Shown here: positions 9,770 through 45,618 of the stretch, piece after piece
Layout: every line of letters begins with the position of its first letter
How positions within the stretch are numbered: the stretch's first letter is position 1
DNA from: an uncultured Poribacteria bacterium
Lineage (GTDB): Bacteria; Poribacteria; WGA-4E; WGA-3G
DNA length: 64,000 bases
Assembly (NCBI GenBank): GCA_951828385.1
Contig: OX639973.1
Location: forward strand, 682,001-746,000
Reading direction: 5' to 3'
Translations under genes and position numbers: made by a program
The notes under the pieces: generated by a model
What the model was told of the DNA's origin: nothing
The model's database searches: none
The model's input: only the letters and a program-made list of their open reading frames with translations

Positions 9770-10954
9770 TTACACACTGATCGATGCCTCACACACATCG
9801 CTCTGAAGCAGCCATACCGAAACTGCCTGAACGATGATTTGGTTTGCCCGTTCAACAATCGGATTTAACGATGGGAGATGGTCAAACATTTTTTGTGCTT
9901 GATCTTTCAGATTTGCCACTGATGACGACTCAAGGATCTTCATCTCTTTGAGAAAAGCTTCAACCTCTGATTGACCAATACGTGCACGGTTACGGAGTTC
10001 TTCTAATTTTGGTGTCTGCTCCCATGCTTTCAAAACCGCTGTGCCGATGTGTTCAATTGAAAAACTTGCAGCGAGCTGTTGGGCTGCTTTTTCTATGGCA
10101 ACTAACGGCAACTTACGTTTCCCCTCGACCACATGTGCTGGCGGTAAGCGGAGGTCCCAGACGATTCTAAAGATCGATAAAGCTTTCAAGATATAATATG
10201 TAATATCAATTTGCCACCAATGAAAGCCTTGGGGCGTAGCACTTGGAAAGTGATGGTGATTGTTATGCCATCCTTCACCTAACGTAATAATAGCCAGAAA
10301 CAGGTTGTTGCGAGAATCATCACCGGTAACATAAGGCTGTTTGCCGAACACGTGTGAAAGCGAATTAATCGTAAATGTGCCGTGAAAAAGCAGCACTGTA
10401 CTCACGAAGAAACCTACGACGAGGCCTGACCAGCCTGCGACTGCCCAAACGAGTACACCTAATACGAATGGCGGTACCCTTTCCCATTTCTCTAACCAAA
10501 CGAGTTCTGGATATTTCTGAAAATCCTTAATTGTACTGTAATCAACGGTACGCCCGCGTTTCGAGAAAATCCACAGCACATGAGAAAACCAGAATCCGTG
10601 TTGGGCCGGGGAGTGTACATCTTGTTCTGTGTCAGAGTGCTTATGATGATAACGATGTTTCGCGGCCCACCAGAGTACACCGCGTTGTGCGGAACTCTGT
10701 CCGAGAAAAGCTAAAACGAACTGGAATACACGACTTGTTTTAAAAGATCGGTGCGAAAAGTAGCGATGGAACCCCGCCGTAATTCCAAACATGCGAATAA
10801 CGTACAATGCGCCACATATAATCCAGTCGATAGGTTGAACATCTACCCAGAAAATTGCGAGACATGCGAGGTGAACAGCTATAAACGGTAAAACACGAGG
10901 GTGAATAATGTCCGCCTCATCGGCTGGACTTGAAGAACACGGTTCTTTTGACAA
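9770..10954 (-). CDS. Acyl-CoA / fatty acid delta-9-type desaturase
   Basis: Integral-membrane di-iron desaturase. All three histidine boxes are present: HRYFSHR, HRYHHKH and HNNHHHFP, with hydrophobic helices between. It would introduce a double bond into acyl chains for membrane fluidity. At 394 residues it is longer than the usual 270-300: about 100 C-terminal residues (after LRLPPAHVVEGKRK) form a helical, coiled-coil-like tail unlike the family core. The start is uncertain. A TAA stop sits immediately before the TTG at 10954, and no in-frame ATG or GTG occurs before the first histidine box apart from one inside the second helix, so TTG is the likely start. A structured non-coding region lies just upstream. 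Confidence 0.85.
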   Translation of the reverse strand: MSKEPCSSSPADEADIIHPRVLPFIAVHLACLAIFWVDVQPIDWIICGALYVIRMFGITAGFHRYFSHRSFKTSRVFQFVLAFLGQSSAQRGVLWWAAKHRYHHKHSDTEQDVHSPAQHGFWFSHVLWIFSKRGRTVDYSTIKDFQKYPELVWLEKWERVPPFVLGVLVWAVAGWSGLVVGFFVSTVLLFHGTFTINSLSHVFGKQPYVTGDDSRNNLFLAIITLGEGWHNNHHHFPSATPQGFHWWQIDITYYILKALSIFRIVWDLRLPPAHVVEGKRKLPLVAIEKAAQQLAASFSIEHIGTAVLKAWEQTPKLEELRNRARIGQSEVEAFLKEMKILESSSVANLKDQAQKMFDHLPSLNPIVERANQIIVQAVSVWLLQSDVCEASISV

Positions 10955-12691: not shown

Positions 12692-15667
12692 CTACTTAAG
12701 GATAACCATTTTGCGCATAGGTGAAATTTCACCTGCTTGAAGTTGGTAGAAATAGACACCACTCGCGACATTTTCACCTAAACCGTTGCGTCCGTCCCAA
12801 TAGGCTGCGCGGCTTCTATGCGTGTAATACCCTGCAGCCTGATGTCCGAGTGCCAACGTGCGAACGACGATGCCTTTTGTGTCATAAATCGTAATCTGGA
12901 CATCGCTATTATTTCCAAGTTGGTAGGGTATCCACGTTTCTGGGTTAAATGGATTGGGGTAGTTAGGCAATAATACAGTCGTTTCTGGAAGAACCGCGCG
13001 TAGCAGTGCTTCTAACATACTAATAGCACGGCGAAAGTCTGGACTGCCATCGTCAGCTGCTTTGACCTGTGCCAACCAACTTTTAACCTGTTCGGCAGTC
13101 GGACTGTGAATCGCAGGAGCAGCTGCCGATCCCTCCGCGATAGCATTAGCGACCAGTACTAAGTCAATAATGTCAACAGCACCATCGGCATTAACATCGG
13201 CGTTAAGTTCTCCGTCCGCAGCAGCACCCACAACCCCAATTTGATTCGCAACCAACACCAAATCCTGAATGTTAACGGAGCCGTCTTTATTGACATCCGA
13301 TTTGGCATAAATGGGGGCATCATTTACTTCAAAACGAACGGTTTCAGTGAAATCTGTCCGAAGAGTGTTACCCGCTTTATCAAATACAGTCATTTCAGCT
13401 AAACCCCATGTGCCTGGAGCACTGCCTACAGGTAAAACTATCGTCTGCTCGTATTCCTTAAAAATCGTCGGGTCACCAGTAAAATACATCCCTCCATATC
13501 CCTCCGGATAGTGATAAAAATGGTGCGTAATGCCCTGAGGATCTCTTAAATGCATACTACCTACTTCATAGCCGCTGATGTTGTCTTTAATCCTAAAAGT
13601 AATATCAACTATTGTTTCACCATTTGGTGCCTCTGGTATGGTGGGTTCGGCTTTGATTGTGATGTTGTTAACATCCAAAACCGGTGGCTCGATGTCCGGG
13701 GTACTTGTTTTTATCTCAATAGTTTTTGGCGGTTCGTCTGTAGTTTCATCTGTGAAATAAACACTTGAACTATTCAATGCAATATCTAACATCGAAATAC
13801 TATTGAGGCTATAAACACCACTTGGCATATATTCAGGGAAATTAAAGTTTACAACTACCCTATCTGATTCACTATCATAACTACCATATTCAAATTGTCT
13901 ATATATTGAATGTGTTTCCCTCAAATCGTCATTTAAAGCCGCAGTAACGTGTTTTATACCTGATTCTTCTATCACTTGCCAACTTGCAGTAACAATCTGG
14001 TAAGGTTGACCGTCAGGTGTCGTAGCTTTCGACAATGAAAGTGTCATTGAGTTTCGAACGTATTCCGGAGGTTCACAATCCGCAAGTGGATTGTCAATAT
14101 AAAGTTTCCAACCGTAGTCAACTTGAGATTCGTGCCGCTCATTACCGTGTATGTCCCAGATTTGGATGGCATCAGGCTGCCAATAACCGTTTGCGGCATA
14201 GCGTGAGAGTTTTGCCTGCCCGCGTAAAATGTGTCCAGAATCAATGTACCTGCCATTAGTGTCAACTGGAGACATCCATGCCAGATCAAAAAAAGTGCCT
14301 TTTTCACTAAGAACTCTGATATACGCTGAGTGTGCAGCATCCAAGTGGCTTTCACCATGGATTTCAATTTCCACTGTTATGAGTTTATCTTCCTCAGGTT
14401 CACCCTCAACCTGTATGTCAATCCGTATGATCCGTCCTGGATACACATAGTCAGGATAAAGGTTGTAAACTTGGAAGGTCAAGTCTTCGCGTATCTGTGA
14501 GATGTAGCGCGTACCATGCATAACTCGGTTTTGGATAAATTCATACTTGGCAGGTGACCGTGAACGCAACTTGTCAGGATTGATGATGTAGTAACTGATA
14601 CTCTCCGCCATATCTTCATTTGGGTTTTTACCATGGGCATAGGCAGAGACAAATTCTGTCTGTTTGGTAGTTGACCAACCGTCTTTATCGTCAGGGTTTT
14701 CATACCAACCCCCAAGTTCAATCCAATCCTGTCTAAGCTGCTCATCGAAAAGGTGTGCCCATAGGAAGTGTGCCTTTTCATGAAGAATCAAACGATGGAT
14801 ATAGTCAAATCCTTGTCCCTGAAACGCAGACTCCATAAATTCGATGTAGCCTGACTCTGGCCATGCGACAGCAGGCGCGGTTGGATAGAGCGGATGTGGT
14901 GTTCCATCTAAACGCCGGACGAGATATTTCAGTCCGGGTGTTTTGAGCATGCCTGATGGGAACTCTTCAAGCATTGAGACGAGCGCGATAAGTTCTTCAT
15001 TTTTGAATTGAGAAAAACGCCCGGCGTGCTCACCCGTTGTGTGCCGCGTGAGTTCAGCATAATCTGGAACATTTATGCTGACAGCATAGCGTTCCTGCAA
15101 TATCCGTTCAAGCGCGTATCTATCTACACCGTCATCGGTTACAAACCTGACCGCAGCATGATGGAGACGTTTTGAGAAGTACCTACCCCGCACGCCTTCA
15201 ATTTCCGCTAACAGCGGTGTTGCATGTACGAATGCTGCTTCGGTAATAGTGACGATGCGCTGCCCGTCTCGATATTCCACCGAAATGTCATCTTGGATAT
15301 GACGGTCACTTAACCGCCAAACAGAGGGTGCCACCCCAGGGGTATCCGCGTATAAGTTATTTGTTTCCTGAGGTATAGATTCAAAGGTCTGAAGCAACCT
15401 ATAGGCATATCCCGGATCCCATTCGGGTCCAAGATGAACAGAATACTTCCGCATCAACGCTAAAGATGCACTATGAGACGGCACTTGTATCTGTTCATCA
15501 AGCAGAGTTACTTCTACAGGTTCAACGACAGTTGCACTCTCGCTGCCTTCGGGTGTTTCATCTATCTCCCAATGGTAGGTGAAAGCCTCACATTGAGAGT
15601 CAGGATTGCAAATCCCTCCTATAAGCAGCATAATGAAAATTAACGCGAATTTGGTTGCTTTCATCAT
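12692..15667 (-). CDS. Large secreted metallopeptidase-like protein with dockerin-like repeats and FlgD-like tail
   Basis: A 991-residue exported protein: signal peptide (FALIFIMLLIGGICNPDSQCEA), an N-terminal region of about 400 residues, Ig-like segments, two calcium-loop dockerin-like repeats (DVNKDGSVNIQDLVLVANQI near 790 and DVNADGAVDIIDLVLVANAI near 828), and a C-terminal FlgD-like sorting domain beginning NYPNPFNPETWIPYQL. Residues near 290-300 read LHEKAHFLWAHLF, an HExxH zinc motif, and about 60 residues later NPNEDMAESISYYI supplies a plausible third ligand, as in several zincin families. It is therefore probably a cell-surface zinc peptidase; substrate unknown. It is flanked by two Rpn copies. 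Confidence 0.75.
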   Translation of the reverse strand: MMKATKFALIFIMLLIGGICNPDSQCEAFTYHWEIDETPEGSESATVVEPVEVTLLDEQIQVPSHSASLALMRKYSVHLGPEWDPGYAYRLLQTFESIPQETNNLYADTPGVAPSVWRLSDRHIQDDISVEYRDGQRIVTITEAAFVHATPLLAEIEGVRGRYFSKRLHHAAVRFVTDDGVDRYALERILQERYAVSINVPDYAELTRHTTGEHAGRFSQFKNEELIALVSMLEEFPSGMLKTPGLKYLVRRLDGTPHPLYPTAPAVAWPESGYIEFMESAFQGQGFDYIHRLILHEKAHFLWAHLFDEQLRQDWIELGGWYENPDDKDGWSTTKQTEFVSAYAHGKNPNEDMAESISYYIINPDKLRSRSPAKYEFIQNRVMHGTRYISQIREDLTFQVYNLYPDYVYPGRIIRIDIQVEGEPEEDKLITVEIEIHGESHLDAAHSAYIRVLSEKGTFFDLAWMSPVDTNGRYIDSGHILRGQAKLSRYAANGYWQPDAIQIWDIHGNERHESQVDYGWKLYIDNPLADCEPPEYVRNSMTLSLSKATTPDGQPYQIVTASWQVIEESGIKHVTAALNDDLRETHSIYRQFEYGSYDSESDRVVVNFNFPEYMPSGVYSLNSISMLDIALNSSSVYFTDETTDEPPKTIEIKTSTPDIEPPVLDVNNITIKAEPTIPEAPNGETIVDITFRIKDNISGYEVGSMHLRDPQGITHHFYHYPEGYGGMYFTGDPTIFKEYEQTIVLPVGSAPGTWGLAEMTVFDKAGNTLRTDFTETVRFEVNDAPIYAKSDVNKDGSVNIQDLVLVANQIGVVGAAADGELNADVNADGAVDIIDLVLVANAIAEGSAAAPAIHSPTAEQVKSWLAQVKAADDGSPDFRRAISMLEALLRAVLPETTVLLPNYPNPFNPETWIPYQLGNNSDVQITIYDTKGIVVRTLALGHQAAGYYTHRSRAAYWDGRNGLGENVASGVYFYQLQAGEISPMRKMVILK

Positions 15668-42226: not shown

Positions 42227-42793
42227 TCATCGACGATAGATGCTGACTTCCATCCCGTCACGTCTTCCAGGGCGCCGCCGACTCTCAAACCAGTGTGTCT
42301 CGGATTCAAAGTTTGAACGGACGTGTTCGAGATAATCAGCCATCTGGTCTGCTCTGCCGACGTTGTCAGCGACAATTGTCGCTGGATCGGTTAACCGAGA
42401 TTCAATGGCTTGGAAACAGGCGAAATAGCCATCTTTGTTGTTGTCGAGAAACAGAAAATCGACAGGTTCTTGGATGGTTTTGAGTACTTCCGCCGCGTCC
42501 CCAATCCGGGAATTTACAAGGTCGGACACACCAGCCTCTTCAAAATGTGTACGTGCCCGCTGTGCGTTTGCAGGCTCAATTTCTACCGTTATCAAACGTC
42601 CCGCGCCTAAATTTTTCAGCACGCGTAATATCCACAATCCTGAATAGCCGATTGCGGTTCCGCATTCTACAATCAGAGACGGTTTTGCCTTTTCAACGCA
42701 ACTGGCGAGCAATTTCGCCTTGTCAGGTCCGAGCATCGGCACGCGTTCTTCACGGCACTGTTCTTCGACTTCTGCTAAAACCTTGTCAAACAT
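42227..42793 (-). CDS. SAM-dependent O-methyltransferase (catechol-OMT-like)
   Basis: 188 residues with a class I methyltransferase fold: motif I VECGTAIGYSGLW, RLITVEIEPANAQRARTHFE, DFLFLDNNKDGYFACF with the acidic loop, and TIVADNVGRADQMADYLEH. These match small cation-dependent O-methyltransferases related to catechol and caffeoyl-CoA methyltransferases. Its substrate is unknown. It is co-oriented with DUF3500 upstream (15 bp from that gene's stop) and the DUF5916 gene downstream. Confidence 0.88.
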   Translation of the reverse strand: MFDKVLAEVEEQCREERVPMLGPDKAKLLASCVEKAKPSLIVECGTAIGYSGLWILRVLKNLGAGRLITVEIEPANAQRARTHFEEAGVSDLVNSRIGDAAEVLKTIQEPVDFLFLDNNKDGYFACFQAIESRLTDPATIVADNVGRADQMADYLEHVRSNFESETHWFESRRRPGRRDGMEVSIYRR

Positions 42794-42808: not shown

Positions 42809-43957
42809 TTATTCTTCATCATGATAATCAAACAATCCATCAATCACATTATGATGATCGGCGGAAGTGTAATGTTCCGGAAGGGGCTTGGGTACACGGT
42901 TCAAGGCGAAAATGCCGTAGTCGTTCCCATTGGGTGCGCGGGTAATCGTATGGATATGGTCTAAACCGCTCTCATTGTTAAATTCAATCCAAACGGCAGG
43001 ATTGAAAACACGATAGTAAATTGGATCATTGATGGTGGTGCCGCCGATCCAAACGAAATAGGTATCGTCGAGTCCGGCATCAATATCAGTCATCCAGATG
43101 TCGGCAAACTCGGTTTCAAGATTGTAGACGTAAGTCTTGATAAGATTCCGAAGGTGCTCTTTTTGGGACGCGTTCATCTCTGATGCCTTCAAGCCGCCCC
43201 CCACAAATTCGGAATAATCGTGATTCAGGAATGGATCGGTTGACCTGCCAGGACCGACTTGGAGTCGACGACGGCCGGTTTGAATTGCTTTCGTTCTCTG
43301 GTTCTCGTCGAGACTGTTGAGTAAAGCGAAGGCGTTTCCTCTTTCATTTTCGAGCACTTCGGTTCCGTTGACAGTTGCGAGTCGAGTGCCGATGAAGGCG
43401 GGGACAATAAAGACGGCATCGCCGTGTACCAAAAAATTGAGTGCCAAGTGATGGCCATCCAACTGGAAGCCCCATGAACCATCAGTCTCTGGGTTTCCAA
43501 ATAGAGCGATGTAATAAAGGTTTGATGCCCAGAAACTGGGGTTGATGTTGCTGATATGCGTTTCAGTTCCTTTTGTAATGAGAGAGACTTTGGTATAGCC
43601 ATCGTCACTCAAGAATACGTTCAAAACTTCATAGAAGCGCGTCAACTGATCTATGGATAACGCATCGAAGCGAATGCCACCGCGATCATCGTTCCGACCG
43701 GGTGGTGTATTCGTCCACGAATAAGATTCTTTGTGTCCGAGTGGGAAAGAAGCATCGGCAAGGAGTTCACTGCTCAACGATGCCCGGAAGTTTTTCATGG
43801 CAGACGTCAGAGCAACAATTGACGGTTTCGTAGAGATATCGGCGACACCTTTTGTTTTTTCTATTTCAACGGTCTGAGCATCGAAGATGGTGATTGTCAG
43901 TGCTATGATACATGCCATTAACATCACAATAAAAATGATTAAAATTTTACGTAACAT
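42809..43957 (-). CDS. DUF3500 family secreted protein
   Basis: The start is the ATG at 43957, giving a signal or anchor (MLRKILIIFIVMLMACIIALTITI) and 382 residues. The DUF3500 hallmark GFQLDGHHLALNFLVHGD is present, with FYEVLNVFLSDDGY, RGNAFALLNSLDENQR and a C-terminal FALNRVPKPLPEHYTSADHH. The histidines GHH and HH near the end suggest metal binding, but the biochemical role of the family is not known. It lies 15 bp upstream of the methyltransferase and is probably co-transcribed with it. Confidence 0.85.
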   Translation of the reverse strand: MLRKILIIFIVMLMACIIALTITIFDAQTVEIEKTKGVADISTKPSIVALTSAMKNFRASLSSELLADASFPLGHKESYSWTNTPPGRNDDRGGIRFDALSIDQLTRFYEVLNVFLSDDGYTKVSLITKGTETHISNINPSFWASNLYYIALFGNPETDGSWGFQLDGHHLALNFLVHGDAVFIVPAFIGTRLATVNGTEVLENERGNAFALLNSLDENQRTKAIQTGRRRLQVGPGRSTDPFLNHDYSEFVGGGLKASEMNASQKEHLRNLIKTYVYNLETEFADIWMTDIDAGLDDTYFVWIGGTTINDPIYYRVFNPAVWIEFNNESGLDHIHTITRAPNGNDYGIFALNRVPKPLPEHYTSADHHNVIDGLFDYHDEE

Positions 43958-44142
43958 GAAGTTATTCCCAATTTTGTTATACAGTCTGAATTTTAGGGTT
44001 GGTTCGTAGTAGTGCGATTTTGCGGCGCACTTGAAGAAATCCCCAGAAATACCCAAGCAAACCCCCCAGCAATACGCAGAAATACGCAAGCAAAAACACC
44101 CCAAATGCGACGGGCATTATCGCACGTCCCACGCTCAACAAC

Positions 44143-44201: not shown

Positions 44202-45533
44202 TTATTCAAGCGAAAGTTCTACTTCGATCTGCTCTCCATTTCTGAGGAGTTTTATGGGTAAAACCTTTGCGTGAGGCTGTTCCTGTAGCACGTAACCGAT
44301 GATGCCGCTTTCTGATAACCGATCGGTGCGTTCACCATAAGCGATAATAATGTCGCCTCGACGGATGCCAGCCCTTTCAGCATTGGTCTGTCCGCCTGAA
44401 CGTCGATCACCCCGTCTGATATTCCCGACTCTCAGTGCCATTTCGGTTTCACCGATACTGTTGCGTTGACGTTCAGCATCAGATAGATCTTCAAGCACCA
44501 TACCACCGAGTGCGACGAGACGGAGTTCGCCTGTCGTCGTGCGCCAAGAGATGTCGCTCCCTTTGCGCCAGCCCGGTTTGAGCGTCAGCGTGAGGTTAAC
44601 TTCTTCGCCGTGGCGGTCTACTGTAGCAGGCAGTGTAGCGTTTTCCGATGCGCGGTGTAACACCCACTGCACGTCCGCGATGGAAATCATCGGCTGCCCG
44701 TCAAGCGTTAGGATCTCGTCTGCGCGACGAAAACCGTCTTTCTCGGCGGCGGAGCCTGAGTCGATTTTGCTAATCTTCGCGCGATGCTTGGGTGAAAAAT
44801 GTAATCCCAAGACATCTGGCATCGGGAACGGATAGAGAACTGCATCTGGTACGGGTTTTCGGTCGTACCAGTGGATCTCGCGCTGCGCCTCGCCAATCTG
44901 GTGGCAGTGGATGCACTGATCACCAACCCGTCCATTAAGGTTCAAGTTTGACGCGTAGCGCAACAGTGCGGGGAACGCTTCTGGTGTTTTCTTTATCGGT
45001 TCGGGTCCGGTTTTCGCGGCTAAAGTTGTTTTGTTCTCCGGGTATCCTTTGTGTAATTCAAGAGCGGCTTCGAGTGCACCCTTGAAACTTTCAATTGAGA
45101 TGTCTTTCGTTGCGTCTTCAAAATCAGCGCGTGTGCCGAAGCGACCGTAGATCGTTTTGTCAGCATTCATGAAGAAGGCAGCGAAGGTGAGGTCGTAATC
45201 GAATTGGAACAGTGATAGATTCATCCCGTTGCCTTGGACCATACGGACGCGTACGAACTGCTCCATCAGATTCTTAATTTCTTTATCGTGACGAACAACC
45301 TGTTCGTCAAAGCCTTGGCAGGACTCTCACGGCACTCAGCGAAAAACGACGAGCAGGGGGTGTCCTGTCTCTTCTGCTTGGGCATACCCTTTATCAAGGT
45401 CGTTGTAGATCCAGTAACCGGTGGAATTCACTGTTATCTGGTCCTCCGCGACCTCTCTATCACCGTGCCCGAAGCAGAATGATGAGGCTAATAGCAGTAT
45501 TCCGAGGATTATGATCGGAATCCGAAATTTCAT
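44202..45533 (-). CDS. Probable selenoprotein: UxxU thioredoxin-like / CxxCH / double-PDZ exported protein
   Basis: One frame from the ATG at 45533 (after AGGAGGATATTTCTA) to 44202 is interrupted only by TGA at 45338-45336 and TGA at 45329-45327. Reading both as selenocysteine gives 443 residues: signal peptide (IPIIILGILLLASSFCFG), a thioredoxin-like domain with HPLLVVFR-U66-V-P-U69-ESC72-QGFDE, a haem-type C207-IH-C210-H211, and two PDZ domains (about 240-330 and 380-443). Both stops fall exactly on the two cysteine positions of a CxxC site, the downstream frame stays open and keeps family-like sequence, and a SECIS-like hairpin follows. Alternatives: a gene broken by two nonsense changes, or separate ORFs (ATG at 45266). 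No selA, selB or selC is in the window. Confidence 0.72.
45290..45308 (-). promoter_or_regulatory. Candidate bacterial SECIS hairpin
   Basis: On the minus strand GACGAACAGGTTGTTCGTC forms a perfect 8-bp stem with GGU in the apical loop. The loop is about 26 nt after the second in-frame UGA and 35 nt after the first, within the spacing usually allowed for bacterial SECIS elements, whose loops carry a conserved G. Confidence 0.55.
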
Positions 45534-45618
45534 TAGAAATATCCTCCTATTTGTTTGAATTAAAATTTCTTCAGGATTGGCGTTTGCCTCTCTTCCTAAA
45601 ATTTGTTGTTCTATGGAA

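Follow-up and report, generated by a model that had tools for sequence, protein, structure and literature searches.

A gene interrupted by two in-frame UGA codons, in the 64,000-nucleotide stretch of sponge-associated Poribacteria DNA analysed here (the window), very probably encodes a periplasmic thiol/selenol oxidoreductase that represents a double-selenocysteine form of the Trx7/PDZ selenoprotein family (Table 1). The frame runs on the minus strand from an ATG at 45533-45531 to a TAA terminator at 44204-44202 and is broken by only two internal stops, both TGA, which fall on both active-site residues of a Thioredoxin_7 domain (codons 66-69 read TGA GTG CCG TGA, with 6 nt between the two UGAs). 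On the 3' side of the UGA pair the same frame continues with ESCQGFDEQVV. An earlier note had described a two-TGA frame from 45533 to 44202 with an AGGAGG, a CxxCH motif and two PDZ domains, and our reading of the sequence and the Pfam matches show both its coordinates and its description to be exact. Standard ORF calling splits this gene, and the called ORF begins past the active site.

Table 1. Features of the selenoprotein gene and its neighbours, in window positions.
Feature	Position	Strand	Basis or remark
Selenoprotein frame (exported Trx7/PDZ protein, 443 aa, two UGA-encoded residues)	44202..45533	-	Sequence reading; NF041199 match
AGGAGG ribosome-binding site	45543..45548	-	9 nt 5' of ATG
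Putative N-terminal hydrophobic export signal MKFRIPIIILGILLLASSFCFG	45468..45533	-	Inferred from sequence reading
Thioredoxin_7 domain, residues 41-124	45162..45413	-	Pfam PF13899, 6.5e-15; fold matches
UGA1 = Sec66, N-terminal position of UVPU	45336..45338	-	Cys TGC/TGT in CxxU and CxxC relatives
UGA2 = Sec69, C-terminal position of UVPU	45327..45329	-	Sequence; homologue alignment
Cys72 (TGC), third cysteine	45318..45320	-	Alignment of relatives
bSECIS hairpin	45290..45308	-	Fold, covariation and codon-shuffle tests
Hairpin 5' arm GACGAACA	45308-45301	-	8-bp stem
Hairpin loop GGU	45300-45298	-	Between arms
Hairpin 3' arm UGUUCGUC	45297-45290	-	8-bp stem
CIHCH (CxHCH), codons 207-211, possible c-type haem site	44901..44915	-	Conservation
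PDZ domain 1, residues 242-318	44580..44810	-	Pfam PDZ_2; fold matches
PDZ domain 2, model residues 337-443	44205..44525	-	Second PDZ_6 stretch; AlgW/DegS PDZ Z 10-13
DUF3500 protein, 3' neighbour, start uncertain	42809..44104	-	Adjoins gene in Poribacteria loci checked
O-methyltransferase-like protein, after DUF3500	42227..42793	-	Same order in Poribacteria loci checked

The protein matches the NCBIfam model NF041199 (Trx7/PDZ (seleno)protein) with 390.2 bits against a cut-off of 300, residues 40-441 covering profile positions 1-389 of 390. Two reviews list this family as CxxU (PMC9312934; PMC13188914), one of which (2026) gives it a single Sec (PMC13188914), and a 2021 survey described it as CxxC/U, fused to PDZ (PMC9402790). 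The U-V-P-U of the window protein departs from the review description of CxxU with one Sec, and its score lies above the curated cut-off, which, rather than any published motif, defines membership of NF041199. The family probably made its first appearance in the GOS survey, where a CxxU protein was named 'putative secreted serine protease MucD' (PMC2398784); the two are connected by a reference in the table of the 2026 review (PMC13188914). The MucD/HtrA serine protease label itself was rejected for the window protein, in which the Pfam and PDB HtrA matches span the PDZ region only and no trypsin-like domain is present.

Alignment of homologues puts cysteine exactly at both UGA columns, in keeping with the earlier proposal that a C-V-P-C site has become U-V-P-U. 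Both TGAs occupy the same codons in every retrieved Poribacteria orthologue that spans the site (pattern TGA-NNN-CCG-TGA), and a search of contigs returned 13 of 13 Poribacteria orthologues as UU, two Verrucomicrobia as C-x-P-TGA and Rhodopirellula europaea as CLPC. The same TGA codons kept in the Poribacteria orthologues, and Cys in distant relatives, bear out the argument of the earlier note that two chance nonsense mutations were unlikely; non-TGA stops in other strains, which it held would speak against selenocysteine, were found at neither active-site column in any relative examined. The family has a match in 38 of 85 genomes of the window's phylum, many of them full-length with two TGAs, and deeper members from the same class read UxxU, CxxU or CxxC, occasionally as paralogues within a single genome. 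It was found in 124 of 392 genomes from the phylum of R. europaea, with two TGAs in many members, and in just 9 of 388 genomes from the phylum of Verrucomicrobiales, as CxxU or CxxC. The 155 distinct aligned family sequences comprise 89 UU, 37 CU and 29 CC, in a sample enriched for TGA-bearing sequences whose proportions are not population frequencies, and UU was read in 62 distinct planctomycete sequences. On this reading of the codons, the CxxU motif of the reviews is narrower than the family, and the predicted UxxU form is frequent among both Poribacteria and Planctomycetota. UxxC occurs in none of the 155 sequences. Where position 1 is cysteine, its codon is TGC or TGT, either of which differs from TGA by a single base. 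The column of the third cysteine, Cys72, is Cys in all Cys-only relatives, is lost in 13 of 126 Sec forms and is never TGA.

Several individual sequences deviate from these patterns. One Poribacteria orthologue (match 1501-2829) has an extra in-frame TAA at codon 152, through decay or sequencing error, and one CxxC member (match 1033-2193) carries a TGA away from the active site (QPGR-TGA-ALHAE), which may reflect error, decay or something else. In two genomes (10714-10809; 15502-15597) only the first 32 residues, the signal region, match at 91% identity and sit in a different 420-codon open frame, perhaps as a swapped or fused export signal. Two genomes carry four matches each, mixing UxxU and CxxU paralogues, to which one of them adds CxxC; such genomes allow active-site states to be compared within one cell.

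A bacterial SECIS lies within the coding sequence and is usually thought to serve one UGA. The earlier note had named prediction of such an element as a check, and a covarying hairpin that fits the published model was found 3' of both UGAs. That model describes a stem of 4-16 bp and a loop of 3-9 nt with G in the first two loop positions, spaced 16-37 nt from the UGA (PMC13188914); the window hairpin, 26 nt past UGA2 and 35 nt past UGA1, agrees with it in stem, loop, G and spacing to both codons. Among relatives, the mean number of the eight pairs that can form is 7.2 in UU, 5.6 in CU and 2.2 in CC sequences, and the folding energy relative to synonymous-codon shuffles gives mean z values of -2.3, -2.05 and -0.2 respectively. 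Covariation across the 126 Sec-type relatives is strong, with 86 double-change cells against 13.5 +/- 4.0 after shuffling (0 of 500 shuffles reach the observed value) and 10-29 when the pairing partners are slid; the facing codons change together (GAA/GTT, GGG/GTC or GCC, GCG/GCG, GTG/GCA). Synonymous-codon identity among 17 Poribacteria orthologues is 0.915 in the hairpin, the highest of 19 scorable stretches, against 0.559 elsewhere. The hairpin is absent from Cys-only relatives. Some members, chiefly CxxU, have other registers or weaker hairpins, and a scan for simple ungapped hairpins of at least 5 bp obeying the loop rule found none in 5 of the 126 Sec forms (four UU, one CU). A phylogenetically independent comparison of hairpin with Sec could use 4-5 pairs, each of which either agreed with the expectation or was tied; they are too few for significance.

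We found no separate signal for UGA1, and the hairpin is alike in CxxU and UxxU members; because of this, a single SECIS most likely serves both UGAs. SelB and tRNA-Sec would bind the one hairpin and recode UGA1 with the loop 35 nt away, and three codons later the same hairpin, now 26 nt off, would recode UGA2. A quick maximum-likelihood tree was built from 152 rows with the active-site columns removed, and it requires at least 22 changes of state at position 1 and at least 5 at position 2. Being unrooted, and weak in many of its branches, it fixes neither the direction nor the exact number of changes. These counts and the absence of UxxC suggest that Sec at position 2 arose first, together with the SECIS, and that position 1 followed by a single-base change. 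CxxC would have given CxxU along with acquisition of the SECIS, after which TGY would have mutated to TGA at position 1, repeatedly yielding UxxU; with a SECIS already within range, that switch takes just one base change. We think it rather probable that one bSECIS recodes two UGAs 6 nt apart, that position 1 is an easy TGY/TGA switch and that UxxC is barred, the SECIS being set for position 2.

The same observations can be read as efficient decoding of UGA2 only, with UGA1 acting mostly as a stop (a selenium-dependent or attenuating switch) and the full-length UxxU protein a minor product. The hairpin lies 21-26 nt from UGA2 against 30-35 nt from UGA1, the latter near the 37-nt limit, and the frequent switching of position 1 beside the rare switching of position 2 would fit such a reading; but UGA1 is kept across the Poribacteria orthologues and the 62 planctomycete sequences, and a useless or harmful stop before the active site should vanish when one base restores Cys, and we consider this reading unlikely. 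It is also doubtful that each UGA has a SECIS of its own, that of UGA1 being unrecognised or overlapping. Competing pairings do appear when the 73-nt segment of the window directly 3' of UGA1 is folded in isolation, where another structure is favoured, but the ribosome would cover the upstream part of this segment, which tempers the rival fold; the UGAs are merely 6 nt apart, and the one hairpin, shared by CxxU and UxxU members, is the sole strongly codon-constrained, covarying element found.

Turning to the decoding apparatus, the earlier note had named selA, selB, selC and selD as genes whose absence would count against selenocysteine, and the genome containing the window (6.66 Mb, a single contig) encodes SelA (523.8 bits), SelB (355 bits, above cut-off), a tRNA-Sec with a UCA (TCA) anticodon (76.4 bits) and SelD (362.6 bits, at 1330118-1331041 of the contig). 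SelD has an in-frame TGA at its own catalytic position (CAGUASK) and is a candidate selenoprotein itself. About 40 bp separate selB from the tRNA-Sec gene (592461-594485 of the contig), with selA and selD far off. Within the 64-kb window ARAGORN found no tRNA and no Rfam family reached its gathering threshold, the Sec machinery lying elsewhere in the genome. Among relatives whose genomes have Sec forms, 48 of 52 (31/34 UU, 17/18 CU) have a selA scoring above its curated cut-off, against 2 of 28 with Cys-only forms (Fisher p ~1e-14, a statistic that ignores shared ancestry), and this co-occurrence runs in the direction that Sec decoding requires. UGA has been reassigned in a few bacteria, and there are variant tRNA-Sec molecules charged with Cys, which provides precedents for decoding of the two UGAs as another residue, either Trp or Cys via a suppressor tRNA, by an altered code or odd tRNA. 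Genome-wide reassignment is ruled out by the window itself, where TGA still serves as an ordinary terminator and closes 8 of 38 long frames; the relatives have Cys and not Trp at the UGA columns, the SelA/SelB/SelD/tRNA-Sec set is complete, the SECIS is local to the site and Cys-only genomes mostly lack selA, all of which makes another residue very improbable. A pseudogene or sequencing error, as two stops and a split ORF call might suggest, has a negligible probability and is ruled out by conservation of the TGA pair in relatives, since identical TGA codons recur across several families and phyla in genomes independent of one another, solely as TGA and solely at catalytic positions, with a conserved full-length downstream region, Sec machinery and a covarying SECIS.

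With both UGAs read as selenocysteine, the protein most likely works in the envelope as a thiol/selenol reductase, with a UxxU site that would cycle as a diselenide. A structure predicted from 66 family sequences (mean pLDDT 92.5, pTM 0.90) has a thioredoxin domain that matches the DsbD-C-terminal-like 3f9u (Z 11.9) and AGR2/AGR3/ERp19 (Z ~9.5); elsewhere the model matches HtrA tandem PDZ domains and the MamP PDZ, and PDZ dominates the whole-model search. The U-V-P-U of the product would cycle between diselenol and diselenide, and glutaredoxin-type enzymes with UxxU are more reducing than their CxxC versions; its task in the envelope may be to reduce disulfides or peroxides, as an enzyme that is strongly reducing or resists oxidation. 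The two PDZ domains would then hold peptides of substrates or partners, and electrons would pass through the CxHCH site, perhaps via haem c. In CxHCH the two Cys and the final His are present in all aligned members covering the motif, in any active-site state. As in c-type cytochromes, CxxCH occurs in a protein whose N-terminus predicts export, and the genome has cytochrome c assembly genes (three Cytochrom_C_asm matches); haem c at this site is plausible, with a metal site or a structural role remaining as alternatives. It is possible that the DUF3500 and O-methyltransferase-like genes that follow are functionally linked to the selenoprotein.

The earlier note had considered a double-selenocysteine site combined with a haem c motif and PDZ domains to be novel. 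The Trx7, PDZ and CxHCH architecture is already that of NF041199, and novelty rests with the double-Sec UxxU form, which is not described for this family in the literature that our search found; coverage of that search was incomplete, and NCBI curators may know of the form. New are the wide occurrence of the predicted UxxU form (89 of 155 sequences in two phyla, in the TGA-enriched sample), what appears to be one SECIS for two UGAs, and the frequent Cys/Sec switching predicted at position 1 (at least 22 changes against at least 5 at position 2). A natural set of CxxC, CxxU and UxxU proteins with one covarying hairpin makes serial recoding by a single bSECIS directly testable, and the same family does so for diselenide versus selenylsulfide chemistry in an envelope oxidoreductase. 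Standard ORF calling truncates such genes, so that their active site goes unseen in Poribacteria and Planctomycetota.

UxxU occurs in other prokaryotic families (PMC9312934; PMC2398784). Prx-like 2/SelL resembles the window protein in its thioredoxin fold, two Sec in UxxU and proposed diselenide (PMC2398784), the UxxU of SelL being attributed to Shchedrina et al. (2007, cited in PMC2398784). It is peroxiredoxin-like, whereas the window protein is a Thioredoxin_7 protein, in which Pfam gave no AhpC-TSA match at E up to 0.1. In eukaryotic SelL the SECIS sits in the 3' UTR. Two Sec are likewise present in ferredoxin-thioredoxin reductase, NF041115 (metal-binding/mercuric reductase-like, UxxU), MbdU and TsoB, which are set apart by their domain names, the Trx7/PDZ/CxHCH architecture being unlisted for them. 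The magnetochrome proteins MamP and MamE combine PDZ with a CxxCH haem c in an exported protein, and the MamP PDZ matches the window model (Z 10.8); the likeness is limited to PDZ, and unlike the window protein they have neither a thioredoxin domain nor Sec. The DsbD C-terminal-like and AGR2-ERp19 proteins share the fold of the thioredoxin domain but, unlike the window protein, have Cys active sites and no PDZ.
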